Virus record (IMG/VR): IMGVR_UViG_3300005782_000015
Coordinates: 1-32,170 of that record
Length of the DNA stretch: 32,170 nucleotides
Strand: one strand, 5' to 3'
Origin: a virus
Below the pieces are notes generated by a model. That model was not told the origin of the DNA. It did no database searches and worked only from the letters and a program-made list of their open reading frames with translations. The translations under genes and the position numbers were made by a program. Positions 4,160 to 27,300 of this stretch are shown here, piece by piece. Within the stretch, counting starts at the first letter, position 1. Every line of letters starts with the position of its first letter.

Positions 4160-4588
4160 ATGGACACGAGCGATGACCCAGTATTCACACCAATACTTAT
4201 TGGTTCCGCCATTGGCGCTGGTACTGCTGCCGCTACTGGTGGCGATATTGGCAAGGGTGCAATGTTTGGTGCCGCTGGCGGGGCTGCTGGCGGCTTTATT
4301 GGCGGCACTGCTGCCTCAGCGGCCGGTGGTTTGACTGCAACGAAAGGGGCGCTGATTGGTGGCGCTTTAGGTGGTGGTGCAGGCGTAGCGGCTTCTTCTG
4401 TGTTTGGTAAGAAAAAAGTTGATGAATTTGGTATGCCTTCTGTCGAAGCTGGGCAAGCCAAGAGAACGGCTGGACCAGTTACGCAGTTATCAGAGCAGGC
4501 CAAGAAGACCAAGCGGTTAAGGGCCTCGATGCTAACGAGGGACTGGGGCAAGCCAACACTGGGTTACGCTGGATTGTTAGGGGAATAA
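4160..4588 (+). CDS. glycine-zipper structural protein, 142 aa
   Basis: ATG 4160 follows AAAAGGAGGCCAA. Residues about 11-82 are almost entirely Gly, Ala and small hydrophobics (for example GAAGGAAGGFIGGTAASAAG) with GxxxG spacing, suggesting membrane-inserting glycine-zipper helices. The last 45 residues are charged, then end in RDWGKPTLGYAGLLGE. Small virion-associated proteins with a glycine-rich part and a conserved 'LLG' tail are found near portal genes of podoviruses; an ejection or tail-assembly role is inference. Its stop overlaps the portal start (TAATG). Confidence 0.55.
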   Translation: MDTSDDPVFTPILIGSAIGAGTAAATGGDIGKGAMFGAAGGAAGGFIGGTAASAAGGLTATKGALIGGALGGGAGVAASSVFGKKKVDEFGMPSVEAGQAKRTAGPVTQLSEQAKKTKRLRASMLTRDWGKPTLGYAGLLGE

Positions 4589-9948: not shown

Positions 9949-10992
9949 ATGGCAACACATACAACAACTGGCAGGCAAAACCTGTTTGATGTAGTGAAGT
10001 TAAAAGCGCCTGGCAGCGGTGCGGTTAGTGTATCCAACACCCTTGTCGAGACCAACGACCTCATAAATGACCTGCCGTCCATTCCCTCCAATGGCGGTCT
10101 GTTTCATCAGGGCGTAAGGGTAGCTGCGCTTCCTTCCGGCTCGTTAGTCAATGTCGGCGGGACGTGGGCGGCGTCAAAGAGTGAGAGAACGCCGTTTGTC
10201 GAGGTCCTCGCCACTGTTCGTTCCAGGTTCCAGTCCCCGAAGGACGTGCTTCAGACCGAGGGACCGGAGGTATCGCAATTACTCGTTTCCGAAGAAAAGA
10301 AGGACCACGTTGAGGGTATGGGCCAATCGTGGGTCAATCTTCTTATGAGCGGCCCTGATGACGTAGCAACCCCGGTGCAAAACTCTATTGTCGGCCTTGC
10401 AAACCGTGCCCCCTGGACAACTATTGACAGCGAGTTCTGCTACGACGTTGGCGGTTCCGGCAGCGACCTCAGAAGCGCATGGCTGATGCAGCCCGGCCCG
10501 ACCACCGTTCACCTTATCTACAATCCCAACCACCCGACTATGGGCGTTGCGATGGAGGACAAGGGCGAGGTGTTCGTTCAGGAATTTGGAACTGATGCCG
10601 ACCCTGCCAATTTGGATGCCGCCGAAGGGAGATGGGACATCATCATCGAATTTATGCTCCAGCAGGGTATCTGTGTAAGGGACCAGCGGGCGGTAAAGCG
10701 TATAGCCAACGTCCAATGCGGGGCCACCGATTCACCCGGGGCGGATTTGATAAACAACGTCATTCGCGCATCGCTCAAGCACAATGTTAATAAGTCAAAG
10801 ATGTGGTTTTTGTACTGCGATGCAGACCTTTATACGCAGCTCGTTCTTGGCGCAAACGACAAACTGAAGGTCTTTATGTCGGACAAGAACATCTACCAGA
10901 CGGTACTGCCGATGATAGGACCGAACGTGATAATTCGCCGGTTGGACGCTCTTAATCACGCAGCCAGCAGCGGTGAAACAGAAATAACTTAA
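9949..10992 (+). CDS. major capsid protein, 347 aa
   Basis: AAGGAG 8 nt upstream and ATG 9949 give a strong start. The protein follows the scaffold gene and has the length and texture of a podovirus major head protein. An N-terminal arm (THTTTGRQNLFDVVKLKAP) is followed by VETNDLINDLPSIPSNGG and a long alpha/beta core with FVEVLATVRSRFQSPKDV and KSKMWFLYCDADLYTQLV. The C-terminal segment is IGPNVIIRRLDALNHAASS, which resembles 'PIRRxDALxxTE' ends known from such proteins. HK97-fold shells are built from many copies of it. I infer the HK97 fold from family; no processing site is obvious. Confidence 0.8.
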   Translation: MATHTTTGRQNLFDVVKLKAPGSGAVSVSNTLVETNDLINDLPSIPSNGGLFHQGVRVAALPSGSLVNVGGTWAASKSERTPFVEVLATVRSRFQSPKDVLQTEGPEVSQLLVSEEKKDHVEGMGQSWVNLLMSGPDDVATPVQNSIVGLANRAPWTTIDSEFCYDVGGSGSDLRSAWLMQPGPTTVHLIYNPNHPTMGVAMEDKGEVFVQEFGTDADPANLDAAEGRWDIIIEFMLQQGICVRDQRAVKRIANVQCGATDSPGADLINNVIRASLKHNVNKSKMWFLYCDADLYTQLVLGANDKLKVFMSDKNIYQTVLPMIGPNVIIRRLDALNHAASSGETEIT

Positions 10993-11591: not shown

Positions 11592-14108
11592 ATGAAAAAA
11601 TTACTAACAATACTGATACTGCTTGCCCTTGCGAGTACAACGTATGCGGCCCTTACTTATGACCAGGATTATTACGTTAAGAACAGAAGGTCGGTGCTTT
11701 CAGGAAGCAGCAATGACCCGCTCTACAATTTTATTGGCGAAGTCGAAGACCTATTAGAGGGCACTACGGCGCAAGACTTTTTCTACCTTAATCCCACCAC
11801 CGTTCCAACTGCGGCAGAAGGTGTTTTCTATTACAACGACAGCCTTGATGTCATTCGTCTCTATACTGGCAGTGCGTGGGTGTCGTTGGAAAAGGGCGGT
11901 GATTACGCATCTCTTGATGAAGCCTATGACGGTGGGGCCGCTATTGCGGTAGATGCCGGTGCAATTGTCCTTACAGCGTCTAATGCAGCCAACAACACTA
12001 TCCTCCAACTTGTTCAATCAGATACAGGAACTTCGCTTGGCATTGACCTTAATAACGCAGGTACGGGTAACTCCATTGACATTCAAGCTGCTCAGGCTGG
12101 GACAGACATTGAAGGTACAGATGATACTTGGAACGTGGCTACTACCGGCGTAGGGACTTTTCTGAGCTTTGCTCTTGAAAACGGCGAGACAATTAAGAAC
12201 GATACCAATAACGAGATAGAGTTTGCTGTTCCCTCTGGTGAGGATATTAGTTTTAATCTGGCTACAAGCAACACTTGTACGTTAGCAACAGATTCAGGTT
12301 TAGACAGTTTTGCCTTTGGTGTTGTTGACGACCTTGAAGGCGTCGGGTCGATTGTTTTTGATGATGCAGCATCTACTATTACTTTGACTTCTACTGGTGC
12401 CACAGACCTTACTATTTCGCAAGCCACAGCCGACCAAGATGCAAGTCTTATCCTACAATCGTCTGGTACTGGTGCGGATGCTTTGAGTCTTATTGCGTCC
12501 GCTGCTTCCATCAATGTGGATTCAGCAGACAACCTTGATATTGATGTTGCAGATAACATCACAGTCGATACTGCAGGCGGTACTATTGCCGTTGTCTCTA
12601 TTGGTGGAGACATTACACTCGACTCTACCACCAAGTCCGTCATTATTGATGGCGCTGAAGCTGTTGATGATGCTATCAACATCGACTCTGCCGGTGGAGG
12701 CTTGGATGTAGATGTCGCTTTGAGTATATGCCTGACAACTACCGAGAGTGAATCGGATTCTGTCAATATTGACTCTGCCGGTGGTGTTGACATTGACATT
12801 AGTGGTGGTGGTGCTGGTGAGGATTTCGCTGTTACTACCGATACCAGTATTACGATGACGGCAACAGAGAACAATGCCGCCGCTATACACATCGAGGAAA
12901 ACGGCGGCACTTCCGGTGGTATCAACATTTATTCCAACCAGGGTGTTGGCGTTGCCGCGAGCACGGAGCACGATGCTTCTATCCAACTACAGTCTGACGC
13001 CGGTGGTATTGGTCTTTATACAACTGCCAACCTTGGCAATGCCATAAGAATAGAGACCAACGGCGGTGCGGACGAGAATATTTTTATCCAGGCCGTGAAG
13101 GGTACTGGTGCAGATTCGATAACTTTGACCTCTACGGTAGGTGGTATTGCGGTAACAGCTAATGCAGCGGGCAAAGATGTTGTACTTGATTCAGTATTAG
13201 GTTCTACCACCTTGATTGGCTCAGAGGATGCTGCAAGCGCTATCTCGCTAACGGTAGATGGCGGCGATTCAAGTACGATAAAGATTCACGCCGACAAGGG
13301 AACTGCTGTGGCTGAGAATGTTGCATCAATTCAGCTTTTGTCAGACGAAGGTGGTATCAGTATTCAGTCTGACGGTGACCTTGACGATGCCATTACCATA
13401 AGGGCTGATGGCGGTACTACTGCCGAAATCACAATCCACAACGACCAGGGTACTGCGACCGATTCGATTGAGATTGTATCTGATGACGGTGGTATCCTAA
13501 TAGATTCAGGCGGCGGTGCAGGCGATGAGATTACTTTAACGTCTTATTCCTCCGTTGTGTTCACAACCGGCCAGACCCGCAAGGTAACTCTTAGCGGGGT
13601 CAGCGATATTGTTCCTGACGGTGGTTCTGCACCTGCTACTATTGGTGCGTTAGGTTCAAACGGAACAGGCAAACTTTGGGCATGGCAGTTTGAAGCCGAC
13701 TCTGGTGGTGATGAGATTGTCCATTTGTTCTGGAACGTGCCTGATGGTTACATAGCTAATTCCGCTCGTCTTAATGTCGGTTGGAGTTATGCAACGGCTG
13801 AAGTAGATGACGATGACGTAGTGTTTGATATGACCGTTGAGGCCATTGCGCAGGGAACCGCTGGTACTGCCGGCGAAGCTCTTTATCAAGCTGGAGCAGC
13901 CTTCACCGAAGGCGATACGAACCTTGATAACGCCGATTCGGACAACAATAAACTGCTTGTTACTCAGCTTAATTTTGAAGTTGAGGACATTGCAGTAGAT
14001 GATACGGTATGTATTATGTTCTGGGTTGACGCCAGCGCAACTGATTTTGCTGACGGTGTTTCCGTAGATGTTCATTTCTGGGAGATTGAGTGGGAATCCA
14101 CTGAGTAA
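11592..14108 (+). CDS. large repetitive fibre protein with Sec signal peptide, 838 aa
   Basis: ATG 11592 follows TTAGGAGAATCTTCAA. The first 19 residues form a textbook signal peptide (MKKLLTILILLALASTTYA, cleavage likely before A20). Next comes a segment common in phage fibres (VPTAAEGVFYYNDS, IRLYTGSAWVSLE, about residues 70-100). Residues about 120-680 are degenerate beta repeats rich in Gly, Asp, Ser and Thr with recurring SDxGGI and xINIDSAGG blocks, indicating a beta-helix or triple-stranded fibre shaft. The last 160 residues form a distinct beta domain (WQFEADSGGDEIVHLFWNVP) that may be the trimerisation or receptor-binding head. A secreted fibre is unusual for a virion protein. Terminators flank the gene on both sides. 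Confidence 0.7.
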   Translation: MKKLLTILILLALASTTYAALTYDQDYYVKNRRSVLSGSSNDPLYNFIGEVEDLLEGTTAQDFFYLNPTTVPTAAEGVFYYNDSLDVIRLYTGSAWVSLEKGGDYASLDEAYDGGAAIAVDAGAIVLTASNAANNTILQLVQSDTGTSLGIDLNNAGTGNSIDIQAAQAGTDIEGTDDTWNVATTGVGTFLSFALENGETIKNDTNNEIEFAVPSGEDISFNLATSNTCTLATDSGLDSFAFGVVDDLEGVGSIVFDDAASTITLTSTGATDLTISQATADQDASLILQSSGTGADALSLIASAASINVDSADNLDIDVADNITVDTAGGTIAVVSIGGDITLDSTTKSVIIDGAEAVDDAINIDSAGGGLDVDVALSICLTTTESESDSVNIDSAGGVDIDISGGGAGEDFAVTTDTSITMTATENNAAAIHIEENGGTSGGINIYSNQGVGVAASTEHDASIQLQSDAGGIGLYTTANLGNAIRIETNGGADENIFIQAVKGTGADSITLTSTVGGIAVTANAAGKDVVLDSVLGSTTLIGSEDAASAISLTVDGGDSSTIKIHADKGTAVAENVASIQLLSDEGGISIQSDGDLDDAITIRADGGTTAEITIHNDQGTATDSIEIVSDDGGILIDSGGGAGDEITLTSYSSVVFTTGQTRKVTLSGVSDIVPDGGSAPATIGALGSNGTGKLWAWQFEADSGGDEIVHLFWNVPDGYIANSARLNVGWSYATAEVDDDDVVFDMTVEAIAQGTAGTAGEALYQAGAAFTEGDTNLDNADSDNNKLLVTQLNFEVEDIAVDDTVCIMFWVDASATDFADGVSVDVHFWEIEWESTE

Positions 14109-14117
14109 GTTTGTTAC

Positions 14118-14148
14118 GGGGGGCGGCACAAAGCTGCCCCCTTTTTTT
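14118..14148 (+). terminator. rho-independent terminator after the fibre gene
   Basis: GGGGGCGGC (14119-14127) pairs with GCTGCCCCC (14133-14141) in nine pairs with one wobble and a five-base loop, followed by seven T (14142-14148). Confidence 0.85.
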
Positions 14149-14160
14149 AAGGATAGAGAA

Positions 14161-14427
14161 ATGAAGATAAGTAAATGGAAGTACGAAGTGATTTTCATTG
14201 CCTTACTATTGTGTATAGGCGGTGGAATATGGTGGTACATGTCCACCAACACGGTACGCCGATATAAGGCACAGACCAAGGAAGTCTATTTGGTTGCCGA
14301 CCGGCTGAAAAGTCAAATTGAGGTGTTCAAACTAAACAGGGAATTGGACAGACTCAAGGTAGAGACGCCCATAATTGCCCCAACGAAACCGGATAAAAGA
14401 ATAGAGCCGCTACTGCCGGAGAAGTAA
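14161..14427 (+). CDS. membrane-anchored coiled-coil protein (spanin-like?), 88 aa
   Basis: ATG 14161 follows AAGGATAGAGAA. One transmembrane helix (about residues 9-28, VIFIALLLCIGGGIWWYM) is followed by a predicted periplasmic helix with coiled-coil character (YKAQTKEVYLVADRLKSQIE, FKLNRELDRLKVE) and a Pro-rich tail (IIAPTKPDKRIEPLLPEK). This is the shape of an inner-membrane spanin (Rz-like), which links the two membranes at lysis, but length and position also fit a tail-assembly membrane protein. No outer partner is adjacent; the lipoprotein at 22480 is distant. Confidence 0.5.
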   Translation: MKISKWKYEVIFIALLLCIGGGIWWYMSTNTVRRYKAQTKEVYLVADRLKSQIEVFKLNRELDRLKVETPIIAPTKPDKRIEPLLPEK

Positions 14428-14453
14428 AGCAGTTTAGTTATAGTTTAACTTTA

Positions 14454-14500
14454 ATCCGCCTACGGCGGATAAATGGGACGAGTTTCGCTCGTCCTTTTTT
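14454..14500 (+). terminator. double hairpin, the second a rho-independent terminator
   Basis: ATCCGCC (14454-14460) and GGCGGAT (14464-14470) form a first tight hairpin. GGACGAG (14476-14482) and CTCGTCC (14488-14494) form a second with a five-base loop and six T after it (14495-14500). The second has terminator form; the first may strengthen it. Confidence 0.75.
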
Positions 14501-14517
14501 AATTTAGGAGCAAGAAG

Positions 14518-15021
14518 ATGTCAATGTTCAAGGAAAGTTCGTCATACGTTGATAAAAACAAGTGGGCCAATGTCGGCTCAATAACCGTACAGCAAGCGGC
14601 CCTTACCGCAACGGGAAGGACCGACGCCGTTGTTGAGGCGTTGGCCACTGCGAATAAGGCCATTTATTATACGAAGACGAGAAGCCCCGCCCTGGAATTT
14701 CGGTTCCGGTCGGACTCTGACGATGACACTGCAACGAACACCTTGCAGCTTTATGCCTCTAATGGCGTGGACCACTACACGAGAATATCGCAGCTTGTGA
14801 TTAAAGAGGGTTTGCAGGAATACTCCTCGACCATCTTTTTCGCCGATGGCATAGCCGTAACCCTCGAAAACTGGATTACCGATACGAAGGCCGTTGTACC
14901 CATAACGACCGATGACCATATTGCCAGATACGTCCTCAATACCCACGGATACGACAGATTTCTTTTCATAGCTTCGACAAGAAACAGCACGACTGTCTAT
15001 ATTGACGTTCATCGAATTTAA
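14518..15021 (+). CDS. beta-rich structural protein without signal peptide, paralogue of the gene at 15864, 167 aa
   Basis: ATG 14518 follows TTAGGAGCAAGAAG. The protein has no hydrophobic N-terminus. Its C-terminal 100 residues align by eye with the protein at 15864: matching landmarks are EFRFRSDSDDD/VRIRLSTTTAA, DHYTR/DHYNR, a following L...G, an AD pair, NW, an I..D.IA stretch and a final TV.I strand. It is likely a virion surface or decoration protein. The two may be partners or alternative versions of one part. No enzyme motif is seen. Confidence 0.55.
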   Translation: MSMFKESSSYVDKNKWANVGSITVQQAALTATGRTDAVVEALATANKAIYYTKTRSPALEFRFRSDSDDDTATNTLQLYASNGVDHYTRISQLVIKEGLQEYSSTIFFADGIAVTLENWITDTKAVVPITTDDHIARYVLNTHGYDRFLFIASTRNSTTVYIDVHRI

Positions 15022-15033
15022 GGAGAGAGAACA

Positions 15034-15846
15034 ATGAGAAAATTGGCACTTATTGTCCTTCTGGTATTGGTTTATACGAGTTTAGGAATGCGCCAGAGAT
15101 ACGAGTCTGCAAGTACGGGTCTCGTTGCCCACTATAAGATGAATGATAATCTTGCTACTGATGTTATTATTGATGAGACTGGAAGTCATAATGGAACATT
15201 CAAAGATGCTACCGGCGACCCCAATACGGATGCACACGATGTTTCGGGCAAAATCAATGGGGCCTTGGATTTCGATGGGACAGATGATTACATTGAGGTA
15301 GCCCACCACGCAGATTTCACACCTATCTCTACTCCGTTTAGTATCTCCGGCTGGATGAATCCAAATGATTCAGAAGATTGCCCTTTAGCGACCAAGGGCG
15401 TTCTGTTCACTAATGGTGAATGGGATTTTGGTTTGTACGATGATGATTACATATACTTCATTCTTGTTGACAAAGACGCTGCGGCCTGGATAGGCCGCAC
15501 CGCCCAAATTTCAGCAGAGCCGCACCAGGATACGGATTTCTATGACTGGCTGGGCTGGCTTCACATAGTCGGGACTTACGACGGAGGTATATCCAGCTCC
15601 GGCATAAAAATATATGTGAACGGCGTGCGGGTTGATGAAACCACTTATAATTACGGCACTTTTGTTGCTATTGATAGTGGTCTTGGTGCTGCCGTTGTGA
15701 TAGGTAAACGGGACGCAGCATACACCAACGGTCTCATTGACAATGTAATGTTCTTCAGCACCGTGCTGACCCCCTCACAGGTCAGTAAAATATACAATTC
15801 CGGCAGGGGCACTGAATCCCCCGACACTTTACGAGAAAGATACTAA
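15034..15846 (+). CDS. exported LamG (concanavalin A-like) lectin-domain protein, 270 aa
   Basis: ATG 15034 follows AAGGAGAGAGAACA. Residues 1-18 are a signal peptide (MRKLALIVLLVLVYTSLG). Residues about 29-262 form one LamG jelly-roll domain: GLVAHYKMNDN at the first strand, GKINGALDFDGTDDYIEV, PFSISGWMNPND, GIKIYVNGVRVDE, and GLIDNVMFFSTVLTPSQVSK at the end. LamG domains bind carbohydrate or proteins on cell surfaces, so a receptor-binding or cell-decorating role is likely. Related LamG domains recur inside the nozzle-like protein at 24354. It is in an operon with signal-bearing neighbours. Confidence 0.75.
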   Translation: MRKLALIVLLVLVYTSLGMRQRYESASTGLVAHYKMNDNLATDVIIDETGSHNGTFKDATGDPNTDAHDVSGKINGALDFDGTDDYIEVAHHADFTPISTPFSISGWMNPNDSEDCPLATKGVLFTNGEWDFGLYDDDYIYFILVDKDAAAWIGRTAQISAEPHQDTDFYDWLGWLHIVGTYDGGISSSGIKIYVNGVRVDETTYNYGTFVAIDSGLGAAVVIGKRDAAYTNGLIDNVMFFSTVLTPSQVSKIYNSGRGTESPDTLRERY

Positions 15847-15863
15847 TTTTAGGAGACAAGACA

Positions 15864-16451
15864 ATGCGAAAAGTAAAAGAAATATCGATTGTGATGTTAG
15901 TCCTTCTGGGGCTTGTTATGGCGAGCTATGTGCTTGAGGCACAACCTATTGATTTTGTTGGCGGCAAGACTGAAATCCGATTAGCTACCAAACAGGATGG
16001 CTGGGAAACTTTAGGGACGTTCTCTGCCGGTGCCACCACACCGGCTGTTACCGCCCGGACCGCCGCAACTTTTAACGTAACCGACCCCAATAATATTGTT
16101 TGTTTAATAGAACCCGGTTGGAACGGAGTGCGGATAAGGCTCAGCACAACAACTGCGGCGGACAGTACGGTTACGGATGTGTTCTTGATGTCTTCTGTTT
16201 CCGACCACTATAACAGGGTCGCTACTTTGACCTGGGTTACTGGTACGCAAACCGCAACAACTTCCGGTCAGGAATATGCGGATGAGGTGGTTGAGACCAA
16301 CGCGAACTGGCACAAGGCCGCCTCTATAATGAGCATAGCCGACGCCGACTACATCGCGGAATGGAGCATAGATGTAATGGGCTCCAAGATGATAGGGCTA
16401 TGCCCAACCACGTATGCCCACGCCACAACGGTCGAAATAACTGGTTATTAA
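15864..16451 (+). CDS. exported beta-rich structural protein, paralogue of the gene at 14518, 195 aa
   Basis: ATG 15864 follows TTTTAGGAGACAAGACA. The N-terminus (KEISIVMLVLLGLVMASYVL then EAQP) is a signal peptide or signal anchor with likely cleavage after LEA. The rest, about 90-195, aligns with the protein at 14518, which lacks the signal. The core has VRIRLSTTTAADSTVTDVF, SDHYNRVATLTW and DADYIAEWSIDVMGSK. Its virion or surface role is inferred from neighbours. It is unclear whether the signal is cleaved. Confidence 0.6.
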   Translation: MRKVKEISIVMLVLLGLVMASYVLEAQPIDFVGGKTEIRLATKQDGWETLGTFSAGATTPAVTARTAATFNVTDPNNIVCLIEPGWNGVRIRLSTTTAADSTVTDVFLMSSVSDHYNRVATLTWVTGTQTATTSGQEYADEVVETNANWHKAASIMSIADADYIAEWSIDVMGSKMIGLCPTTYAHATTVEITGY

Positions 16452-16453
16452 GT

Positions 16454-18013
16454 ATGAAAAAGCTAATATTGTTAGTTCCTCTATTATTTTGCAGCATTTG
16501 TCTCGGTGGTGTTGTTAGGCCGATATTTGACCCTTTTGCTGCGCATCTCGACTGGATTAACCCCAAAAATTACGGTGCTGTCGGGGACGGTGATGCTAAT
16601 GATACGGATGCCATCCAAGCCGCTTTAGATTCTATGGTTGATGGGGATACGTTTTATCTACCAGCGGGCGACTTTAATACAACTTCTGTCCTTACTGCTG
16701 GAAGTAATGATGCAAACCTTCAGTCTTGTAATTTTATTTTCGATGGGATTATAAGGGCCAATGATTGTAGTGGTATCACATTTGAGAGGTTAATGGAATG
16801 TAATATCGACATCAATGGTGTGAGGCATAATACAGTAGATTGGGGGGACAGTAATTATTGGGGAATAAAATTCAAGCGATTGAATTACTGTAAAGTTAAT
16901 ATTAACCTATCCTGGCATTTTACCTACGGCCTTTACTTCGACGGAGACGGTGGGGGTATTTCATACAATCAATTTAGCTTTAACTCTGTGCGTGCAAAGT
17001 ACGGTTTGTATTTCAAGTCCCAAAACAACGGATGGTTAAACGCCAACAGCTATCACGGCGGTAGAATATGGGTAGATAGTGGAACTAAAAGGAATGTCAT
17101 AACCTATGAAGCTACTGGGACATTAGACCCTGATATAACAGGAACTTTTGAATACCATAACGAATACAATGACAAATCTTCTTACAAACTTTCTGGACAG
17201 GAATGGTATATCTGGTGGGACAATACTGACACTTGGGTAATATCAACTGCACAAGGAACAGCTGATGCTAATTATTGGGAAAGAACCAGTTCTATTCGTC
17301 ATGGCGATTATAGTCCAACAGGCGGGGCTTCTGGTGATGCAAGTGTACCGGTAGTGGGTGCTGGCTGGGGAATTTACTTTGCAGATGACCCCAGCAAGAA
17401 TTTTTATAATCATAGTTTCTATGACGCAGTTCTTGAGGGATTACACAATGGTATTCACTTCAGTAAGAATTATTACACTTTATTAGCTAATGTTTATTTT
17501 GAAGGTGTTGATGACAACCATATAGCCAGCAGCGGGTGGGCTCAATATACTACCTGGATTCTTGGTAATCAGGGATTAGATAGAACAAAGCTCGACTTAA
17601 CTACCTTTAGACAATTCGCTATAATTGGATACCACCCCGATGCGAACAGTTCCATTATGATAGATGGTAGCGATTATGGTGGCATTGTAGCAGTAGACGC
17701 CACCGATGATTTAGCAGCTTTAGGAAGATTGTCGTACGATAAGACAAATGACTACTGGAAATTCGAGGGAGGCGGCCTCACAGTTGATTCTAACAGCATT
17801 CGAGTGACGACAGCGAAAACGCCATCGGCTCCAAGCGATACAGGCACTCAGGGGGACATTTGCTGGGACAGTGATTATGTCTATGTTGCTGTCGCAAATA
17901 ATACCTGGAAGAGGTCGGCTCTGTCATCGTGGGGATTTGCAGGGGAAACGATGATTTATGAGGACACGAATACAATGGTGTTCGAGGACGGCAATACGAT
18001 GATTTATGATTAA
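16454..18013 (+). CDS. exported pectate-lyase-like beta-helix protein (tailspike-like), 519 aa
   Basis: ATG 16454 lies 2 nt after the preceding stop. No strong Shine-Dalgarno is seen, so coupling is likely. A signal peptide (MKKLILLVPLLFCSICLGG) is followed at about residue 34 by NPKNYGAVGDGDANDTDA, the hallmark start of Pectate_lyase_3-type right-handed beta-helices used in phage tailspikes that cut or bind surface polysaccharide. Beta-helix turns continue to about residue 400. A segment typical of fibre ends follows (TPSAPSDTGTQGDICWDSDY, VYVAVANNTWKRS). The last 21 residues repeat a short motif three times (TMIYED, TMVFED, TMIYD). Catalytic residues cannot be assigned by eye. Confidence 0.7.
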   Translation: MKKLILLVPLLFCSICLGGVVRPIFDPFAAHLDWINPKNYGAVGDGDANDTDAIQAALDSMVDGDTFYLPAGDFNTTSVLTAGSNDANLQSCNFIFDGIIRANDCSGITFERLMECNIDINGVRHNTVDWGDSNYWGIKFKRLNYCKVNINLSWHFTYGLYFDGDGGGISYNQFSFNSVRAKYGLYFKSQNNGWLNANSYHGGRIWVDSGTKRNVITYEATGTLDPDITGTFEYHNEYNDKSSYKLSGQEWYIWWDNTDTWVISTAQGTADANYWERTSSIRHGDYSPTGGASGDASVPVVGAGWGIYFADDPSKNFYNHSFYDAVLEGLHNGIHFSKNYYTLLANVYFEGVDDNHIASSGWAQYTTWILGNQGLDRTKLDLTTFRQFAIIGYHPDANSSIMIDGSDYGGIVAVDATDDLAALGRLSYDKTNDYWKFEGGGLTVDSNSIRVTTAKTPSAPSDTGTQGDICWDSDYVYVAVANNTWKRSALSSWGFAGETMIYEDTNTMVFEDGNTMIYD

Positions 18014-18022
18014 GGAGTAAAA

Positions 18023-19699
18023 ATGAGAAGCAAGATAATAGTCATAACCTTGGTTGTTTTTGTGTGTGTTACGATAGCATACGCGGCGGATGTAAAATGG
18101 ACTGCTCTTGCTGAACTTACTGCCGTTGCCGATGCTGATGTTCTTTGTATCGTTGATGACGTAGCTGGTACAGCGACTTCCAAAAAGATTACCGTACTCA
18201 ACCTCTTCGATACAATAGACACCTTCGCGGAATTAAACACCATTGTAGCCGACAAAACACTCGTCAATGAGGAGGATGCTGTCGGCTGGGATGCCCTCGG
18301 CACATTTAACCTCGGTATAACCATCACTACCGGCGACCCTTTTACTTTAGGAACGAACAGGATTGATGACGGCTCCGACCTGCTGGATGGTGAGATGATT
18401 GCCAACGATACCATAGACAATAACAGCATCGACTGGGGCGATATGACAGACTTGACTACGGATGGGGCAGTTTCTTGGGGAAACATAGCTGAAGGCGAGC
18501 TTGCTGATTCTACCGTAGTAACAGGAGATATTAAAGATGGTACTGTAACTGAAGTAGACCTGAATGTAACAAACGCTCCAGGTGCAGGTGAGGACAATTA
18601 CGTTCTGACCTATAATCACGCAGCCACCAATTTCACATGGGCAGCGGACGCTGACTCTGGCGGTGCTACGGCGTGGGATGATATAACTAATCCTGACGCC
18701 AATGATGAGATAGACTTTGGCGCTCACGTCATTGAATTGAATGTGGCCAATTTCCAAATCGGGGACGGCGGGGCTAACTATGTGGATTTTGACGGCACAC
18801 CAACCATAACTTTTGCCGGTAATGCCGATATAGACTTGCCTACCGGAAGTGTGGATTTAGTCGATTTAGTTGCGGGCGTTTACGCCAAAGACCTCGTAAC
18901 CACAGCCCCGATAACGGGAGCGGCTGACAACATTTTTGTCGGAGCAGACAGCGATGTAACCGTTGCCTTGACCCTGTTAAAAGACATAGTAACTACGGCC
19001 CCCATAACCGGCGGGGAAGATGATGTCCTGCCGGGCGCCGATGCGGATTTGACTATTGCTTTGACCCTGCTAAAAGACCTTGTAACTACCGCTCCGGTTA
19101 CGGGAGGGACAAATGACATATTCCCAGGAGCGGATGCGGATATTACAGTTGCTCTCGACTTTACTGCGGCCTGGGATTTTGGCGGAGCGACTTCCCTTGA
19201 GATACCAAACGCTGATGACCCTGATGTAGATGCCGTTGGGGAAATCACACAAGACGCGAACGGGGCGGGTGAAGCCAATGATGTCAGTCTCAGAGGTTTT
19301 GATGGAGTAAATCAATTTCTTTATGCCCGCAAGCTCAAGACTATTCAATGTACCATCATAAAGCCCAACGACCTGGCTGACGCCACTCGTGACGCCTGCC
19401 CTATCTGGTCTAACGAGACTGGTATGACTTTCACGGTCTGGAAAATCGAGGCTTGGTCTGACACCGATGACACGGTTTTAAATGTTGAAGAAGAAGATGC
19501 GGACGGGGCCAACAACGCTTCTGTCGATGAATTGACAATAGCCACCGATGGTACGGGTATGTACTACACAACGGAAACAACAATCACAGGGGCGACCATA
19601 GAAGCAAGCCACATATTGCTTCTGGACTTTGACGATACTGATGACCCCGGCTGGGTAAAAATAAGTATCTGCGGCTGGTTTAACGCAGATGTAGATTGA
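18023..19699 (+). CDS. exported fibre protein with three 31-residue repeats, 558 aa
   Basis: ATG 18023 follows TTAAGGAGTAAAA. Residues 1-21 are a signal peptide (MRSKIIVITLVVFVCVTIAYA, cleavage before AD). The chain is acidic, Gly/Asp/Thr rich and lacks enzyme motifs; MIANDTIDNNSIDWGDM and ADSTVVTGDIKDGTVTEVDL are typical of phage fibre shafts. Three repeats begin KDLVTTAPITG, KDIVTTAPITGG and KDLVTTAPVTGG. The C-terminal 130 residues form a separate beta domain with TIQCTIIKPNDLADATRD and a final WVKISICGWFNADVD. It is probably a fibre or surface adhesin. Confidence 0.65.
   Translation: MRSKIIVITLVVFVCVTIAYAADVKWTALAELTAVADADVLCIVDDVAGTATSKKITVLNLFDTIDTFAELNTIVADKTLVNEEDAVGWDALGTFNLGITITTGDPFTLGTNRIDDGSDLLDGEMIANDTIDNNSIDWGDMTDLTTDGAVSWGNIAEGELADSTVVTGDIKDGTVTEVDLNVTNAPGAGEDNYVLTYNHAATNFTWAADADSGGATAWDDITNPDANDEIDFGAHVIELNVANFQIGDGGANYVDFDGTPTITFAGNADIDLPTGSVDLVDLVAGVYAKDLVTTAPITGAADNIFVGADSDVTVALTLLKDIVTTAPITGGEDDVLPGADADLTIALTLLKDLVTTAPVTGGTNDIFPGADADITVALDFTAAWDFGGATSLEIPNADDPDVDAVGEITQDANGAGEANDVSLRGFDGVNQFLYARKLKTIQCTIIKPNDLADATRDACPIWSNETGMTFTVWKIEAWSDTDDTVLNVEEEDADGANNASVDELTIATDGTGMYYTTETTITGATIEASHILLLDFDDTDDPGWVKISICGWFNADVD
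18890..19168 (+). repeat. three tandem 93-bp coding repeats
   Basis: Units start at 18890, 18983 and 19076, exactly 93 bp apart. Each encodes D-(L/I)-VTTAP-(I/V)-TG, then an acidic GADADxTVALxLLK-type ending. The third unit diverges at its end into DFTAAWDFGG. DNA identity is moderate while protein identity is high, so the repeats are maintained as protein structure. Confidence 0.8.
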
Positions 19700-19707
19700 G
19701 GAAAAGT

Positions 19708-21009
19708 ATGAAAACACGACGGCAATTACTCAAGGAGTCTTTAGTTGCTCTCTTGTTTGTGCTGCGTACAGGAAAGGCTAAAGAAAGCCCGATAAGTAAA
19801 GTTAATTGGATTGAGTCGAACAAAACCTTTACTGACCTCTACGGAGACCATCTTAATAACGTGGTGGTCTTTGGCAATCCTGATAATACAAAGGACTTTG
19901 AAGCCCACGTTAAAATGCAATTCTGGGGTGAGGACACTATATGCCTTTCTGAAGAAAGCATTAAAGGTGAGCCAACTGTTGAAGGTGAGGTCGTTACTCT
20001 TGATTTACCCACACGAAAACTACAATGGTTTAAGGGTGACAGGCCGAAATGGGGCTCTATTCACTGGGTCGAGGTTCTTAAAGAAAAACCCTTGAGCAAT
20101 AAATGGTCTCTGAAGATTGCCGATGCCGGTCAATTTAAGTATTGTTATCAAACACCGTTCGCTGAGGTGTCCCTCCATATTCCTGGTTCGAGAATTGAGT
20201 ATATCGAAGCAAATGGCGTAGAGCATATACGTCTTATCTATCCCGAAGGCGGGCTGGTCGAATATGATGAACGCCCTCTGGATGTAGATGGCTCAATCGC
20301 TGTCTATCATAAAACAAAACGAGACCATTGTATAGGCGGTAAAAACTATCGCACCGGCAAAGTCCTTCATATCCCAAGACCGAAAGCCGTTGATGAAAAT
20401 GGCAAGTGGGTTTGGTGTGATATTCAAGTTAAAGATGATATTTACACCAGAACTATTCCACAATCTTTTCTTGATTCAGCAGCTTACCCTGTAATTATCA
20501 ATGATACATTCGGCTATTGGTCTTCAGGTGCCACAACACGGACTACTTCAGCCAAATATCAATATGCAAACTACAAAGGCTCTCCTGCTTCGGATGGGAG
20601 TGCTACCAGTATGAGTTTTTACGGCTGCGATAGAGGTGCTGGCTCGAATCCAACTTTGGGTATTTTTGCTGAAAACACTGGAGTACCTGGTAATCTACTT
20701 AGAGATACCGGAGCAATTACTGTAGATGATACGGTTCAATGGTGGTCGGATGACCTCGATAGTCCCCTTGATATTTTGGCCACCTCTGAGTATTGGCTGG
20801 GCCTAAATTCAGACCCCGGAGTTACTTGGTACGCTGATACTGATAGCCAGGACAGTTATTATCAAGAAGATAACACATATACGGGAGGAACCCTTATAAG
20901 TTTTTCCTCCCCATCAGAATGGTGGACAAACTACATTTTTTCAATTTATTTAACTTATACGCCTTCGGCAGCAGAAGGAGGCCAAGTAATAATCGTAAAT
21001 ACGAATTGA
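19708..21009 (+). CDS. tail-associated protein with twin-arginine-like signal, 433 aa
   Basis: I place the start at ATG 19708 (GAGGAAAAGT upstream). The N-terminus KTRRQLLKESLVALLFVL has a twin-arginine pattern (RRxLLK before a hydrophobic stretch), followed by RTGKA as a possible cleavage region. Residues about 30-270 are beta-rich, with SAAYPVIINDTFGYWSS near 255-275, a junction seen in large surface and fibre proteins. The C-terminal 160 residues form a jelly-roll-like domain (GNLLRDTGAITVDDTVQWWS, SPSEWWTNYIFSIYLTY). A role in the tail or on the host surface is inferred from neighbours. Confidence 0.6.
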   Translation: MKTRRQLLKESLVALLFVLRTGKAKESPISKVNWIESNKTFTDLYGDHLNNVVVFGNPDNTKDFEAHVKMQFWGEDTICLSEESIKGEPTVEGEVVTLDLPTRKLQWFKGDRPKWGSIHWVEVLKEKPLSNKWSLKIADAGQFKYCYQTPFAEVSLHIPGSRIEYIEANGVEHIRLIYPEGGLVEYDERPLDVDGSIAVYHKTKRDHCIGGKNYRTGKVLHIPRPKAVDENGKWVWCDIQVKDDIYTRTIPQSFLDSAAYPVIINDTFGYWSSGATTRTTSAKYQYANYKGSPASDGSATSMSFYGCDRGAGSNPTLGIFAENTGVPGNLLRDTGAITVDDTVQWWSDDLDSPLDILATSEYWLGLNSDPGVTWYADTDSQDSYYQEDNTYTGGTLISFSSPSEWWTNYIFSIYLTYTPSAAEGGQVIIVNTN

Positions 21010-21077
21010 AATCGGGGGCTTCGGTCTGATACTTATTTGGGTCGTTATAAAGAAATTAAGGAGAAAGGAAAAGCAAC

Positions 21078-21674
21078 ATTGCGGATGAAATTAAAGTTAT
21101 TTCAAGAACGGGTTATACTCTCGAAGCCGACGTATTTCAACCGGATGGTACTGAAAGGGAGTTTGCCGTTAGTCTGACCGAAACCGCACGGGGCCGCTTA
21201 TATCTCGGCGCTTGCGCTACCATACGGCCGGGGGACGTTATAGTCGCTTACGATACCGTCTCCGGCAATATAATCGCCGGTGGGGAATATAAACCCAGTG
21301 CCATCCACAGCGGTTCGGCGAAAGTAATACCCTTTGGTTATGCTGGTGATTACGAGGAAGAGGAGATTGTCTATTTCTTATGGGGAACGAAAGTAGCGCC
21401 GTCAGTAGCCGGAACAATAAAGGTTTATAAGAACGATGGTACGGGCGAGGTTACTTCGCCAACGGGTATCACAGATGACAGGGATTTCGATGGTAAAAGT
21501 GGTGTGCATTTGTGCACCATTGATTTATCGGCAAACAACTTTTATGCGGAAGAAAGAGATTACTTCGTAGTTTTAACCGGAGCCACAATAGACGGGCAGT
21601 CGGTAGATATTCCGATTGCAAGTTTCAGTATCAAGAACCGCTATCAAGGTAAGGCCTGGAAGCGGGACGTTTAA
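21078..21674 (+). CDS. structural protein with ATT start codon, 198 aa
   Basis: The frame is open from after TAA 21057-21059 to TAA 21672-21674 and has no ATG, GTG or TTG until about residue 140. ATT 21078 lies 8 nt after AAAGGA, with TAAGGAG slightly further upstream, and gives ADEIKVISRTGYTLEADVFQ after the initiator. This is a natural start for such phage proteins, which in my recollection often begin MADEIK. A domain with GRLYLGACATIRPGDVIVAY and GNIIAGGEYKP follows, then a second beta domain (KVAPSVAGTIKVYKNDGTG, YFVVLTGATIDGQSVDIPIA). It may be a tail-fibre base or adaptor, immediately before the collagen-like gene. Coding quality is high; the start codon is the unusual part. Confidence 0.7.
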   Translation: MADEIKVISRTGYTLEADVFQPDGTEREFAVSLTETARGRLYLGACATIRPGDVIVAYDTVSGNIIAGGEYKPSAIHSGSAKVIPFGYAGDYEEEEIVYFLWGTKVAPSVAGTIKVYKNDGTGEVTSPTGITDDRDFDGKSGVHLCTIDLSANNFYAEERDYFVVLTGATIDGQSVDIPIASFSIKNRYQGKAWKRDV

Positions 21675-21688
21675 GGAGTCAAATAAAA

Positions 21689-22339
21689 ATGGAAGACCAC
21701 AATTTTTCAAAAAAGAAACCAAAAAACCAAAACGAGCTGTTGGCTGAAAAACTCATAAGCCGCATAGTGGTTAAAGAAGGCGGGCTGTTCCTTGCTGGTG
21801 AGGGCGGTGGCCCTTTGAAGGTCTTAGCGCAAGGCGATAAAGGGCAAAAGGGCGTTCAAGGCATTCAAGGCGAGAAAGGCGAGCAAGGCATTCAAGGTGA
21901 GCAAGGTTCACAGGGTATAGAAGGACAGCAGGGTAAACAGGGCGATCGAGGTGAGCAAGGCACTCAAGGTGAGCAAGGTGCTCAAGGTGAGCAGGGATTA
22001 CAGGGTGAGATTGGGATACAAGGCGAAACTGGCCTTAAAGGTGATAAAGGGGACAAGGGGGACAAGGGCGACTCAATTCACGGCCAACAGGGTGAGCAGG
22101 GCGAACAAGGCCCGCAGGGAGGCCAGGGCGAGAAAGGTGAGCAAGGCCCCAAAGGCACTGATGGCACTAATGGTATCGATGGTAGAAACGGCAGGACGGG
22201 CGAGCAGGGAATACAGGGGTCACAAGGTGATAGGGGGCATGCAGGCATAGCGCCTGCGGAAGTTGCGTATTTCACCAATTCAATTATGCAACTGAAGGCA
22301 CAAGTCCAGGAATTGCAGGAGAAATTGAAAAATGCCTAA
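21689..22339 (+). CDS. collagen-like fibre protein, 216 aa
   Basis: ATG 21689 follows TTTAAGGAGTCAAATAAAA. The N-terminal 48 residues ([18 protein letters not shown]) may attach to the virion. Residues about 49-190 are continuous Gly-X-Y repeats ([41 protein letters not shown]) rich in Gln, Glu and Lys, which form a collagen triple helix. The C-terminal [20 protein letters not shown] is a trimerising coiled coil. Collagen-like proteins serve as fibre shafts in several phages. The DNA is repetitive on the GGNGANCANGG pattern. Confidence 0.8.
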
Positions 22340-22475
22340 AGGAACACGGGTACATAGACTTTATACGAAATTTCGGCGTCAAGGAAAGAGCAAGGCAAGC
22401 GCCGCTCGTATAGCACAACACCAAACAGGACAATCTTTGAAAACAGGCAGGAAACCTAAACACAGAAAAAGGTGA
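22332..22475 (+). CDS. short basic conserved-type phage protein (MPKG...), 47 aa
   Basis: ATG 22332 overlaps the collagen-like gene by 8 nt. The sequence starts [11 protein letters not shown], then [18 protein letters not shown] and ends [11 protein letters not shown]. This resembles a frequent family of tiny proteins (pattern 'K-G-S-A-x-R-I-A-Q-x-x-T-G-Q-S-L-x-T-G-x-x-P') seen in many phage genomes. Its function is unknown; the basic charge suggests nucleic-acid binding. Confidence 0.6.
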
Positions 22476-22479
22476 TTAG

Positions 22480-22665
22480 ATTAAAAAAGGGCTTGGCATT
22501 TTCCTATTAGTAATAATGGTTGGATGTCAAGCTGAGAGGAAGCCGCCTAATTGGCGCGATAATCCTGAAATATATCAAGAAGCCATTATGCGGTTATATG
22601 AACACGTTAGAAGGGTGCAAAATCACAGAAGATATATTCTTATCGACCCGAACAGTAAGGAATAA
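22480..22665 (+). CDS. small lipoprotein with ATT start codon, 61 aa
   Basis: The frame opens after TAG 22477-22479 and ends at TAA 22663-22665. From ATT 22480 it reads (M)KKGLGIFLLVIMVGCQAERK: a basic start, a hydrophobic core and the lipobox VGC, that is, a complete lipoprotein signal with the modified Cys at 16. AAGGTGA (22469-22475), which matches the anti-Shine-Dalgarno sequence, lies just upstream. The only ATG in the frame (22516) would remove the signal core and leave MVGC. The mature part is charged and helical (WRDNPEIYQEAIMRLYEHV). Small phage lipoproteins act in superinfection exclusion or as outer-membrane spanins; neither is shown here. Confidence 0.65.
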   Translation: MKKGLGIFLLVIMVGCQAERKPPNWRDNPEIYQEAIMRLYEHVRRVQNHRRYILIDPNSKE

Positions 22666-22668
22666 ATA

Positions 22669-23634
22669 ATGGCTCTTGTAGATATTGTCAATAACGCTCT
22701 CGGCAAAATCGGTGGTGCAGGCGATGCTTTAAGTGGTGAGGCGTTTCTTGAGAACCTTGATGGCACGGATAAAGTTACCGAATGGTGCAATATCAAGTAC
22801 CCCATAATTCGGCAGAAAATCATAGCCGACTTCGCCGCGATGCAGTGCCCTTTCAGGGAGAGCTTGAAGTTCGCCGATTTAGGCGATGACTTGAAGCAGG
22901 ATGACGTTGATATTTCGACCATCGTTTCTTCTGGCGGAACTGTTACGGTTACTACCGATACGGTACACGGTCGCAGCACAGATGATACGGTGTTTCTGGC
23001 CGATATTGTAGGGACGTTAGTAAATTCCCTGAATGGCACGACACCGAAGATTACCGTTGTAGATACCACGAGCTTCACGCTCCAAGACGTAACGGGGACG
23101 GCTTCCTGGGACCACACTGAGGATACGGGCATTGTGAGCTATGTGCCCGAAATCGGGCAATGGGCCTACGCCTTTAGCTTGCCAAGCGACTATTTCGCTA
23201 TGGTTCGGCATTGTAACGAGACTTATACCACCAAGGACGGCGTTCGCAAGGAACATCAGTATCAAACGATTCTCAATAAAGACGGCGATGGTCTTATTCT
23301 GCTTACCAATATCCTATCTAATGCGGACGCCGATTCTGCCTATATTGAGTATGTTATTGACCAGGACGATACAACCTTGTTCAGTGATGCCCTTGTCGAA
23401 TGTATCGCAACTTTATTAGCCGCCGAACTTTGCCCAATTATCGGGAGAAATTTAGAGGTCAGACAGCGACTGCTCCTGGAGTACAAAGAACTGACCGTGC
23501 CAGATGCGAAGAGGTTCAATCAGTCCCAATTCAATAATTCCGCAAAAACCGTGCCAGATTATTCCGGTGGCAGGACGCAGGTTTTGAGGGGGACGGGAAA
23601 CGCTCGTACCAATTACGGTTATCGGGCAGTGTGA
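22669..23634 (+). CDS. tail adaptor protein (T7 gp11-like), 321 aa
   Basis: The start is ATG 22669, with AAGGA just upstream. The sequence follows the podovirus adaptor pattern: ALVDIVNNALGKIG at the start, then WCNIKYPIIRQKIIADFAAM (the 'C...YP..R...L..F.W..A' helix), QWAYAFSLPSDYFAMVRH near residue 165 and VECIATLLAAELCPIIGRN near 245, with a helical C-terminal end. The adaptor ring sits between portal and nozzle. A middle segment (about 85-150; SSGGTVTVTTDTVHGRSTDD) is an extra beta region beyond the minimal fold. The 3' end overlaps the convergent HNH gene by 16 nt. Confidence 0.75.
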   Translation: MALVDIVNNALGKIGGAGDALSGEAFLENLDGTDKVTEWCNIKYPIIRQKIIADFAAMQCPFRESLKFADLGDDLKQDDVDISTIVSSGGTVTVTTDTVHGRSTDDTVFLADIVGTLVNSLNGTTPKITVVDTTSFTLQDVTGTASWDHTEDTGIVSYVPEIGQWAYAFSLPSDYFAMVRHCNETYTTKDGVRKEHQYQTILNKDGDGLILLTNILSNADADSAYIEYVIDQDDTTLFSDALVECIATLLAAELCPIIGRNLEVRQRLLLEYKELTVPDAKRFNQSQFNNSAKTVPDYSGGRTQVLRGTGNARTNYGYRAV

Positions 23635-24227
23635 GGTATTTTGCTATGACATTTTCGACAAAGAGGAACAACATCAAGCCAAAACTTAGGGGCGTAGCCC
23701 TTGTGGTGATGGTAGTGCTTGGTAGGTTCGCCGCAGGAACATTGCAGGGAATTAGGTCGGGGCAATCTGCCATCTCTAATTGCTTCCCTCACCGCTTTGC
23801 GAGCTGCAATTCGTTCAGGATATTGTTTGTAATAGCGTTTATAATAAGCCTTACCTTTTTCGCTCTGTTTGTAACGTTTGATGCAATCTTTTCTTGTATT
23901 CTTACCCTTTTCGCTTTGTTGGTATCGATTATCAGAAACTTTCTTTTTGGCTTTATATTCATCAGTATGCCGAAAGCGTTTTTGGGTCGTTTTGCCTTTT
24001 TCGCTTTGAGCATAACGTTTTCGAGCAGCTTTACCTTTTTCACTTTGATTATACCGCTTTATAGCAGCTTTACCTTTTTTGCTTTGTCTATCCCGCTTTT
24101 GATATATCTTCTGGCAATCTTTACAAGACCCTTGAAGTCCATCTTTTCTTTGACTTTTGTAAAATTCCGAAAGCGATTTGAATTGCTTGCAGGTGCAACA
24201 TCGTTTTGTTATGATTGTTTCAGACAT
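23619..24227 (-). CDS. HNH homing-type endonuclease with internal repeats (copy 1), 202 aa
   Basis: The gene is opposite to all structural genes. GGAG (rc of 24228-24237) supports its ATG at 24227. The N-terminus has a zinc knuckle, C10-x2-C13 and C35-x2-C38 (CCTCKQFKSLSEFY, GSCKDCQK). Residues about 55-135 contain repeats of 13 residues (RYNQSEKGKAARK, RYAQSEKGKTTQK, RYKQSEKGKAYYK). The C-terminus is an HNH nuclease core (QCSCGEPTKHYHHHKGY, DVVPLCRKCHSKI). It shares this design with the gene at 28073. Such enzymes cut unoccupied sites and spread by repair. The + strand is also open here, but that reading is antisense to the conserved motifs. Confidence 0.8.
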   Translation of the reverse strand: MSETIITKRCCTCKQFKSLSEFYKSQRKDGLQGSCKDCQKIYQKRDRQSKKGKAAIKRYNQSEKGKAARKRYAQSEKGKTTQKRFRHTDEYKAKKKVSDNRYQQSEKGKNTRKDCIKRYKQSEKGKAYYKRYYKQYPERIAARKAVREAIRDGRLPRPNSLQCSCGEPTKHYHHHKGYAPKFWLDVVPLCRKCHSKIPHTAR

Positions 24228-24291: not shown

Positions 24292-24322
24292 TTTATACTA
24301 ACAGATTCTTGGGGGCTGGCAA
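24292..24322 (-). promoter_or_regulatory. possible promoter for HNH copy 1
   Basis: On the minus strand TTGCCA (rc of 24317-24322) and TATAAA (rc of 24292-24297) are separated by 19 bp, longer than ideal. The position relative to the hairpin matches the better promoter of copy 2. Confidence 0.35.
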
Positions 24323-24353
24323 GATATTTTTTATATTATTTTTATTAGCGGGG

Positions 24354-27300
24354 GTGACCTTTGGAGTATCTCCAAGTATCAATTCATTCAATACTGGCCA
24401 GGTGTCTCCCTTGTTAGAAGCTCGTAGCGATTTTCAAAAATACAATTCCTCTTCTCGCACGATTGAGAATATGCTTGTCGCCACACAGGGGCCGGTTTTC
24501 AGGAGGCCGGGGACGAAGTATATCGCCTCGCAAAAAACCTCATCCGCCGCAGGCAGGGTGGTCGCCTTCGAACATTCCGTAGATGATAATTACATTCTGT
24601 TGTTTGAAAATGAAGTCCTTAGATTCTTTCGTGATGGCGGGCAGATATTAGATGGTGTTGGCACGGAGACTTTAACTGCCGTGGATGGGGGAGCGCTCGT
24701 AGCCCACTGGTTATTAAATGAGGATGAGGGTGTTACCGTAGTAAATGCAGATAACGCAGGGACGTATGATGGCACTGCATCGACAGATTGCAGTACGCTT
24801 CACGCTGATGGCAAAGTCGGTACGGGCTGTTTTGATTTAGATGGTCAATATACAGTAGAAATAGCAGACGCCGCCGCTTTTAGCTTTTCAGACGATTCAA
24901 ATGATACCACTTTCAGTTTTGCCTGCTGGGCATACATAACACAGTTAAACGACCTTCAGGTTCTTTTATCGAAATGGCGAGATGACAATTCTGCAAGGGA
25001 ATGGCGATTTAGTCTAACCAATGACCGAAAATTGCAATTACATTTGGCTGATGCCAGTGCGGATTTATCCGGCGATAGAATTGCTCAATGGAAATTAAAC
25101 GAAGATGCCGCCAACACAACAGTATTGGACACGGATGCGACCTCCCACGATGGCACTACCCAAGTAGGCAATACTGAAGATGTAAATGCTGTTGGTAAAA
25201 TTAGTGGCGCTTTTGATTTTGGTGGAGCGGAATCCGTTGTTATTACCAATGACCACGCTGAATTAAGTTTTGGAGACGGGACGGATGATAGTCCCTTTAG
25301 TATTTCGGCGTGGGTCAAAGCCAGTAGTACAGCAGCAATCCAGCATATATTTAGTAAATATGATGCTACCGCAGGGTCGGAGGCCAGAGAATATAGATTA
25401 CTTATTAATGCGATAGGAGGAGTACAAATTAGATTGTATGATGAAAGTGCTCCCGGAACGACGTTAGCTCAGGCAGACGCGATACCAAGGACAATAGTAG
25501 CTGATAACTGGTATCTCATAACCGTTACATACGATGGTTCTGGAGGTTCAAGTGCGGCAGAGGGCATTAAAATATATGTAAATGGAACTGACGCAACATT
25601 TTCCACTCACACATTCCCCGGATATACAGCAATGGAAAATCTTGCAACTAAAGTTGTAATTGGGGCTTATTATGATGCAACTGGGATACTTGGCCAGTTT
25701 TTTGACGGTCTAATAGATAATGTAGTCTTATTTAATAAAGAACTTACACAAGCCAATGTTTCTGCTTTATGGAATGACGGCAGCGGCACAGAAACGATGG
25801 CGAGTGCTGAAGTTTCTGCGGTAACGGATAATGCTGTTTCACTCGGCTGGCATTTTCTCACTTGCACTTATAGTGCTCCTATCTCTGACGCTGCCGATGG
25901 AATAATTTTTTACGTGGATGGCGAGGCTGTTGACTCCACTGCTACCAACGATGCGACCTATACCGCAATGCAAGGTGCAGGAGAGGCAGTCCGTATTGGT
26001 TCACAAAACAATTCCGCCGATGATGCCAATGAAAAGTTCTGGGAAGATAAGATAGATGAGGTTTCTATATTCAGTGATGTCCTTACGCCTACGGAAGTTG
26101 CGAGTCTTTATTCTACAACTCCTTACGAAATAACAACACCTTATCTGACAGCAGACCTATTTGGTCTCGACTTCATAAAGAGTGAAGATGTTATGTATAT
26201 CACTCATTCCGATTACGAGCCGAGACAGCTTTCAAGGGCAGGTCATTCGTTATGGACAATGGAGGCGCTCGGGATAGATGATGGGCCGTTTCAGGAACAA
26301 AATACCGATACGACTTTTACGATAACGCCTTCGGCAGCGACCGGCTCGATTACGCTTACTGCAAGCGATGACTTTTTTGTTTCAGGACACATCGGGTCGG
26401 TATGGCAGATAGACCAGCCGCGGGCCTCATCGGTTTTCACGGCAACCATCAACGCCAATGAGTCGGGGGCCATAATACCATATTTTGTCGGCGGATATTC
26501 GTTTACAACGACAGGAACCTGGACAGGAACAGTAACCTTGCAGAGAAGCTCTGACGATGGCGCTAACTGGAGCGCGGCCTTAACGGCACTGGTAGATACG
26601 AATTTCGATAATCCCGCCGAAACAGAAGTAGAGGGGGCCATATACAGGGTGACGGGAAGTAGTTGGGGGGAGGGTAATTGCGTTTATACATTCACAATTG
26701 CCGACCAGGACAATCACGGTGTCGTTGAGATTACCGGCGTTGATAGCGGAACTGTCGCCGTGGCCACCGTTTTAACGGATTTAGTAAATACCGATGCTAC
26801 ATCTCTCTGGCGGGAGGGTTACTGGAGTGATTACAGGGGATGGCCCCAGACGGTTACGGTCCATCAGCAGAGGCTTGTTTTCGGCGGCTCAGAGAGTTTT
26901 CCACAGACGATATGGTTCGGTAAGGCCGACCCTGACGATTACACCAATTTTACCGAAGGAACGCTGGACACATCGGCATTCACAATCGCTTTACCAGGCC
27001 AAAATCCTATTGAATGGCTTTTATCACAGGACTATTTACTTGTAGGCACTGCGGGTAGTTGCGGCAAGTACGGTGAGCAGAGCGAGGCGATTACACCGAC
27101 AAGTCCAATCTATCAGGAACAGACAAGGCACGGTTCAGCGTCAATTCGCGGAGTTATTGCAGGCGATACGGTACTCTATATCGAAAGAGGGAGCCGGAAA
27201 GTAAGGGAGTTTGCTTATAGTCTGCAATTCGACAAGTATCTCTCGCCCGAATTAACTATCCTTTCACCAGAAATAACGGACAGCGGTATTAAGGATGTCG

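Follow-up and report, generated by a model that had tools for sequence, protein, structure and literature searches.

Gene content and order of the window

The whole IMG/VR virus record IMGVR_UViG_3300005782_000015, with a length of 32,170 bases, was analysed and is referred to as the window. Its gene set is of the tailed dsDNA phage type, and homologues of the portal, capsid, tail tubular A and tail tubular B proteins of epsilon15 were identified by PHROG matches in conserved order (Table 1). On the basis of these matches and the gene order, the window is classified as an epsilon15-like podovirus. The order is the same as in epsilon15, but in the window approximately nine genes are added between the cement gene and the gene of tail tubular protein A.

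Table 1. Genes and features of the window. A slash marks the cut judged likeliest; in some proteins the best site of the scorer lies a few residues off.
Gene or feature	Position	Strand	Signal region	N-terminus, score	Basis and remarks
TerL	2385				
Portal (head-tail adaptor)	4588..6360	+			phrog_332, E = 4e-41; without signal peptide
Scaffold/protease-like	8961				
Major capsid protein	9949..10992	+			phrog_212, E = 1e-20; without signal peptide
Cement-like	11052				
F1, large repetitive fibre-like protein	11592..14108	+	11592-11648 (predicted)	MKKLLTILILLALASTTYA/ALTY, 6.11	first gene past the cement gene
Open reading frame	14161..14427	+			translation; not called exported
Paralogue of the 15864 protein	14518..15021	+			BLASTP; signal-less
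LamG/concanavalin-A-like lectin-domain protein	15034..15846	+	15034-15087 (predicted)	MRKLALIVLLVLVYTSLG/MRQR, 5.74	PF13385, E = 2e-19; phrog_8510 virion structural protein, E = 1e-12
15864 protein	15864..16451	+	15864-15941 (predicted)	MRKVKEISIVMLVLLGLVMASYVLEA/QPID, 5.88	homologue L075:10304
Tail-spike-like, pectate-lyase-type N-domain	16454..18013	+	16454-16507 (probable)	MKKLILLVPLLFCSICLG/GVV, 4.76	PF12708; tail families phrog_17312 and phrog_2234
F2, fibre-like protein	18023..19699	+	18023-18085 (predicted)	MRSKIIVITLVVFVCVTIAYA/ADVK, 6.47	conserved TSKKITVLNLFDTIDT motif after the signal (alignment with relatives)
19708 protein	19708..21009	+		MKTRRQLLKESLVALLFVL..., 6.03	twin-arginine-like N-terminus
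Open frame	21078..21674	+			without ATG, GTG or TTG start
Collagen-repeat tail-fibre-like protein	21689..22339	+			PF01391, E = 6e-23; phrog_6320 tail fiber; no signal call
Lipoprotein-like open frame	22480..22665	+			without ATG, GTG or TTG start
Tail tubular protein A (gatekeeper-like)	22669..23634	+			phrog_394, E = 3e-16; signal-less in window and relatives
HNH-endonuclease-like	23619..24227	-			by eye
Tail tubular protein B (nozzle), LamG insertions	24309..28082	+	24309-24365 (signal-like)		phrog_376, E = 2e-167
HNH-endonuclease-like	28073..28657	-			by eye
GNAT-like	28746				
Internal virion (ejection) protein	29382..30035	+			phrog_418, E = 2e-24; without signal peptide

Signal peptides in the block between cement and tail tubular protein A

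Start codons were picked by rule, and N-termini were evaluated with a purpose-written rule-based scorer, which takes into account a positive n-region, an uncharged hydrophobic core and either a small-x-small cleavage site or a lipobox. The cut-off of 4.9 was taken from its own calibration control set; at this value 15 of 17 secreted proteins of E. coli K-12 were called, as were 0 of 40 cytosolic and 1 of 10 membrane proteins. Shuffled N-termini scored as high as the real ones in 0.2% of trials. According to this calibrated scorer, the signal-bearing proteins described below possess the features of Sec/SPI substrates (n-region, core and small-x-small site), and most of their genes are preceded by motifs resembling a ribosome site.

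A first-pass annotation of the window, which was made from the letters of the sequence, had assigned Sec-type signal peptides to the proteins starting at 11592, 15034, 15864, 16454 and 18023. With the rule-based scorer the proteins at 11592, 15034, 15864 and 18023 were all clearly above the cut-off, while the signal of the tail-spike-like protein at 16454, which scored slightly below it, is probable. In F1 and F2 the motifs directly after the cut are conserved while the signals themselves are variable; among the relatives of F1, for instance, the signals have diverged and the start of the mature protein (LTY...) has been retained. Neither F1 nor F2 had a match among 50,697 phage records. Genes resembling the one at 15864 directly precede tail tubular protein A in several relatives, as seen in the group alignment. 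AlphaFold modelling of this group reached a pLDDT of only 61, and a reliable fold match was not obtained. The window also harbors a natural pair, as the protein at 14518 lacks a signal and its paralogue at 15864 carries one (BLASTP of this pair alone, E = 3e-5).

For the protein at 19708 a twin-arginine signal had been proposed. Its N-terminus does resemble the twin-arginine consensus, with a TRRQLLK motif, and passed the general scorer, but the Tat models of NCBIfam and Pfam gave no match. Its sole relative in the phage collection, from the spring-water podovirus MW202647.1, is signal-less. The lipoprotein that had been proposed at 22480 could not be upheld: the frame is present and contains a lipobox-like MVGC, but only an ATT could serve as its start. 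The frame at 21078 has the same property, and in both frames the in-frame ATT follows a ribosome-site-like stretch, so that ATT starts or assembly errors are possible.

The nozzle carries a signal-type leader ahead of its canonical N-terminus

Tail tubular protein B is undoubtedly a virion protein. Its gene lies downstream of the block delimited in the first-pass annotation and was missed there; its product has an N-terminus of the same kind. The start of this gene in the window is doubtful, because an HNH gene is inserted on the minus strand right upstream and the closest ordinary start codon, a TTG, lacks a ribosome site. The nozzle gene is flanked by two such HNH-like genes, which are similar to each other and carry QSEKGKAxxKRY-type repeats. 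The upstream one overlaps the 3' end of the tail tubular A gene and occupies the place expected for the start region of the nozzle, and the downstream one overlaps the 3' end of the nozzle gene.

A signal-type leader was detected on 6/6 nozzles, namely those of the window, L025 (MKKILFLLLCSVSFG/YIGPVTNFNSG), L013 (MKKILFVSVLLFFTEGLLA/EQHFTPTIESLNTG), the L003 contig (MKRLALVLVLCSASFG/YMPSMTNFNTG), L014 and L005, of which the last is barely over the cut-off (4.96). The signal consists of 15-19 extra residues directly ahead of the canonical N-terminus. The conserved FNxG motif occupies residues 9-11 where nozzles lack the signal and residues 23-30 where they carry it, and the predicted cut would therefore restore a normal nozzle. 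All signal-bearing nozzles fall into a single clade (support 100/100), within which the signals share 38% identity on average and the first 90 residues of the mature protein 64%. The low identity of the signals is expected for a leader that is retained for its physical character.

Further nozzles were sought using a DNA pattern of the mature motif FNxGQ[VI]SPLxE, of which the leader is not a part. Four additional nozzles were recovered and all of them have a signal-type leader; three passed the cut-off (6.69, 6.26 and 5.44), and the fourth (MIKKILLTVCLLVGLCFG/YSPTIQSFNSG), which has a TTG start, scored slightly below it (4.87). Thus, a nozzle signal was present in 10/10 clade members examined, including the one at 4.87 and the doubtful start of the window. 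No internal start that would yield a signal-less nozzle was conserved across the nozzles checked, and in L005, L025, L061 and L075 there was no internal start at all ahead of the motif. Cysteine counts, which might have hinted at disulphides, showed no clear difference between signal-bearing and signal-less nozzles.

In the sister pair L015/L016 the nozzle is signal-less (read directly in L015, the gene model of L016 being incomplete at its start) while the fibre-like F1 carries a signal, indicating that the split of signals differs among relatives. The nozzles of the window and of L013 (L013:9974-13729) contain long insertions that are absent from L005, and those of the window were recognized as LamG by Pfam.

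Signals are sorted by position in the virion

Genes of the window and its relatives were assigned to classes by homology and position. No signal was called among the packaging, capsid, cement, gatekeeper and ejection genes (0/51), in contrast to the other genes of the morphogenesis segment, which encode fibres, spikes and lectin-like proteins (28/36; Fisher 4e-18, with the genes being homologous sets and not independent events). The exterior genes without a signal (8/36), to which the borderline 16454 was counted, are mostly small (95-216 aa). As controls, the structural genes of seven named podoviruses (0/71) and the non-structural genes of the relative G014 (0/29) were scored. The contig of G014 (L072-L074; IMGVR_UViG_3300028610_000533) has 50,710 bases and its two ends overlap inside the nozzle gene. 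The genome is therefore probably complete, and would serve well as the type of the group. The first-pass annotation rightly treated the signals as a coordinated trait of this module and as unusual for virion proteins.

Among the exterior parts of relatives, a fibre or spike of L014, whose gene lies between those of tail tubular A and B, matches the tail-protein family phrog_1640, beginning with position 2 of the profile. In the protein the match starts at residue 19, directly behind the predicted signal. Signals were also found on two tail-spike-type proteins, L012:19881 and L006:5208. A search of PDB sequences with the tail-fibre profile gave matches at chance level only. In L006, L009, L010, L026, L028 and L029, which have other tail genes, signal-type N-termini were found on fibre-, spike- or F1/F2-like genes and the packaging genes are signal-less. 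The trait consequently extends past the nozzle clade.

Possible routes of assembly

Signal-type N-termini are confined to the outer parts of the virion, abut canonical mature N-termini and are conserved across the clade. We infer that these leaders act as Sec signals and are cleaved. As judged from the sequences, it is an even call that the outer tail parts are synthesised with Sec signals, mature in the periplasm and join heads formed in the cytoplasm at a late stage. That the group would constitute a tailed lineage with a two-compartment virion, in which capsid, packaging and gatekeeper functions are cytoplasmic, nozzle, spikes and fibres are exported by Sec, and both are joined upon breach of the inner membrane, is put forward more tentatively, as a proposal with slightly less than an even chance of being right.

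In such a route, the nozzle, fibres, spikes and lectin-like decorations would be synthesised as Sec precursors. The signal-less head, portal, gatekeeper and ejection proteins would, by homology, be assembled in the cytoplasm, where DNA would also be packaged. The outer parts would be exported and lose their signal, and folding or trimerisation might take place in the periplasm. The gatekeeper would retain the DNA until nozzle and fibres dock, and the two halves could join once lysis disrupts the inner membrane and the compartments mix. The P22 tailspike is reportedly added late, in vitro, to finished heads, and head-tail joining in vitro is known for other phages too. Counting against the two-compartment reading are the exterior genes without a signal, the signal-less nozzle of L015/L016 and the doubtful nozzle start in the window.

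Two explanations had been offered in the first-pass annotation, decoration of the host surface and tail maturation either from the periplasm or following lysis. Of these, the latter agrees better with the data, because the strongest signal case is the nozzle, which belongs to the core of the virion and has no evident function at the surface, and because a signal is also present on a fibre or spike whose N-terminal domain is known from tail proteins. LamG, pectate-lyase-like and repetitive fibre-like proteins would nevertheless be suited to coat or alter the infected cell surface, for superinfection exclusion, as decoys or for adhesion, rather than to serve mainly as virion parts. Phage surface proteins exist, for example Lom of lambda (PMC12309495), and signal-bearing genes of Porphyromonas gingivalis phages have been proposed to act in this way (PMC10367356). 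However, with a leader on all ten clade nozzles examined (the one below the cut-off and the doubtful window start included), no conserved internal start and the signal on the fibre with the tail-protein domain, we regard this explanation as unlikely; it is the nozzle signal that makes pure surface decoration unlikely.

Identical N-terminal features direct proteins to the membrane either way, and the hydrophobic N-termini might accordingly target proteins to the inner membrane, with tails being built there on docked heads and no mature parts released into the periplasm. The regular cleavage-type sites (P1 is Ala in 30 of 34 proteins and Gly in the other 4, at a position where the scorer demands a small residue) speak against this, as does the length of the hydrophobic stretches in the nozzle leaders, which are short for a membrane span. 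It is held to be quite unlikely.

A dual fate, in which export is inefficient, a cytoplasmic share enters virions and the remainder is exported, would reconcile the signals with ordinary cytoplasmic assembly and could draw on the low score of the L005 nozzle leader. Since the signals are mostly strong (scores of 5.5-6.7), an uncleaved leader would occupy the N-terminus of the nozzle and the internal start is not conserved, such a fate appears improbable. Finally, it is very improbable that the signals are an artefact of misassigned start codons, or leaders cut by the phage prohead protease instead of Sec (the processing assigned to signal-like capsid leaders of P. gingivalis phages; PMC10367356), because, even though starts were chosen by rule, shuffled N-termini, core genes and control genes rarely or never scored (0.2%, 0/51 and 0/71), all four newly recovered nozzles bear leaders, ribosome-site-like motifs are found at most signal genes, and the leaders sit on tail parts and are missing from the capsid protein.

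Implications for podovirus morphogenesis

Assembly of tailed phages is regarded as entirely cytoplasmic. A nozzle made solely as a Sec precursor would, if true, break this rule, and whether a T7-like tail can be completed outside the cytoplasm thereby becomes a testable question. Given the sorting of the signals, the virion may be made as two halves, one on each side of the membrane. Podovirus morphogenesis and the timing of lysis would then be understood differently, and if the two-compartment reading is true, final assembly would be coupled to lysis. If demonstrated, this kind of assembly would be categorically new, while the present evidence is a sequence feature only. For the annotation of viral genes, a predicted export signal alone should not exclude a function in the virion.

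Comparison with known systems

The coat proteins pIII and pVIII of the filamentous phages M13 and fd are made with Sec signal peptides, and these phages are put together in the inner membrane and leave the cell by extrusion, without lysis. To our knowledge, filamentous phages are the case of Sec signals among virion proteins. The window differs from them in that, as read from its genes, it represents a tailed dsDNA phage with head proteins of the cytoplasmic type. In open-licence PMC full texts, no published signal peptide on the nozzle or fibres of a tailed phage was found.

The host Sec pathway is used by the endolysin Lys44 of fOg44 and by SAR endolysins (PMC6116005). These act in lysis and are no parts of the virion. 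Phages of Porphyromonas gingivalis (proposed Nixviridae) have several signal-bearing genes with unassigned function (PMC10367356). Their signals follow the Q rule of Bacteroidetes and none was reported on a tail nozzle, and in both respects they differ from the group of the window. There, only 11 of 74 proteins have a potential small-x-Ala/Gly site with Gln as the next residue, which would count weakly against a Bacteroidota host. Neither the nozzle profile nor the F2 N-terminal profile detected a relative in scans of GTDB genome contigs.

Uetakevirus (epsilon15 and phiV10) and, more distantly, BPP-1 and HTVC010P share with the window the order TerL, portal, protease/scaffold, capsid, cement, tail tubular A, tail tubular B and internal virion protein, but these named podoviruses lack the block of signal-bearing genes between cement and tail tubular A. 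The signal-bearing tail proteins are a difference from the named podoviruses and are no reason to doubt the kinship with epsilon15.
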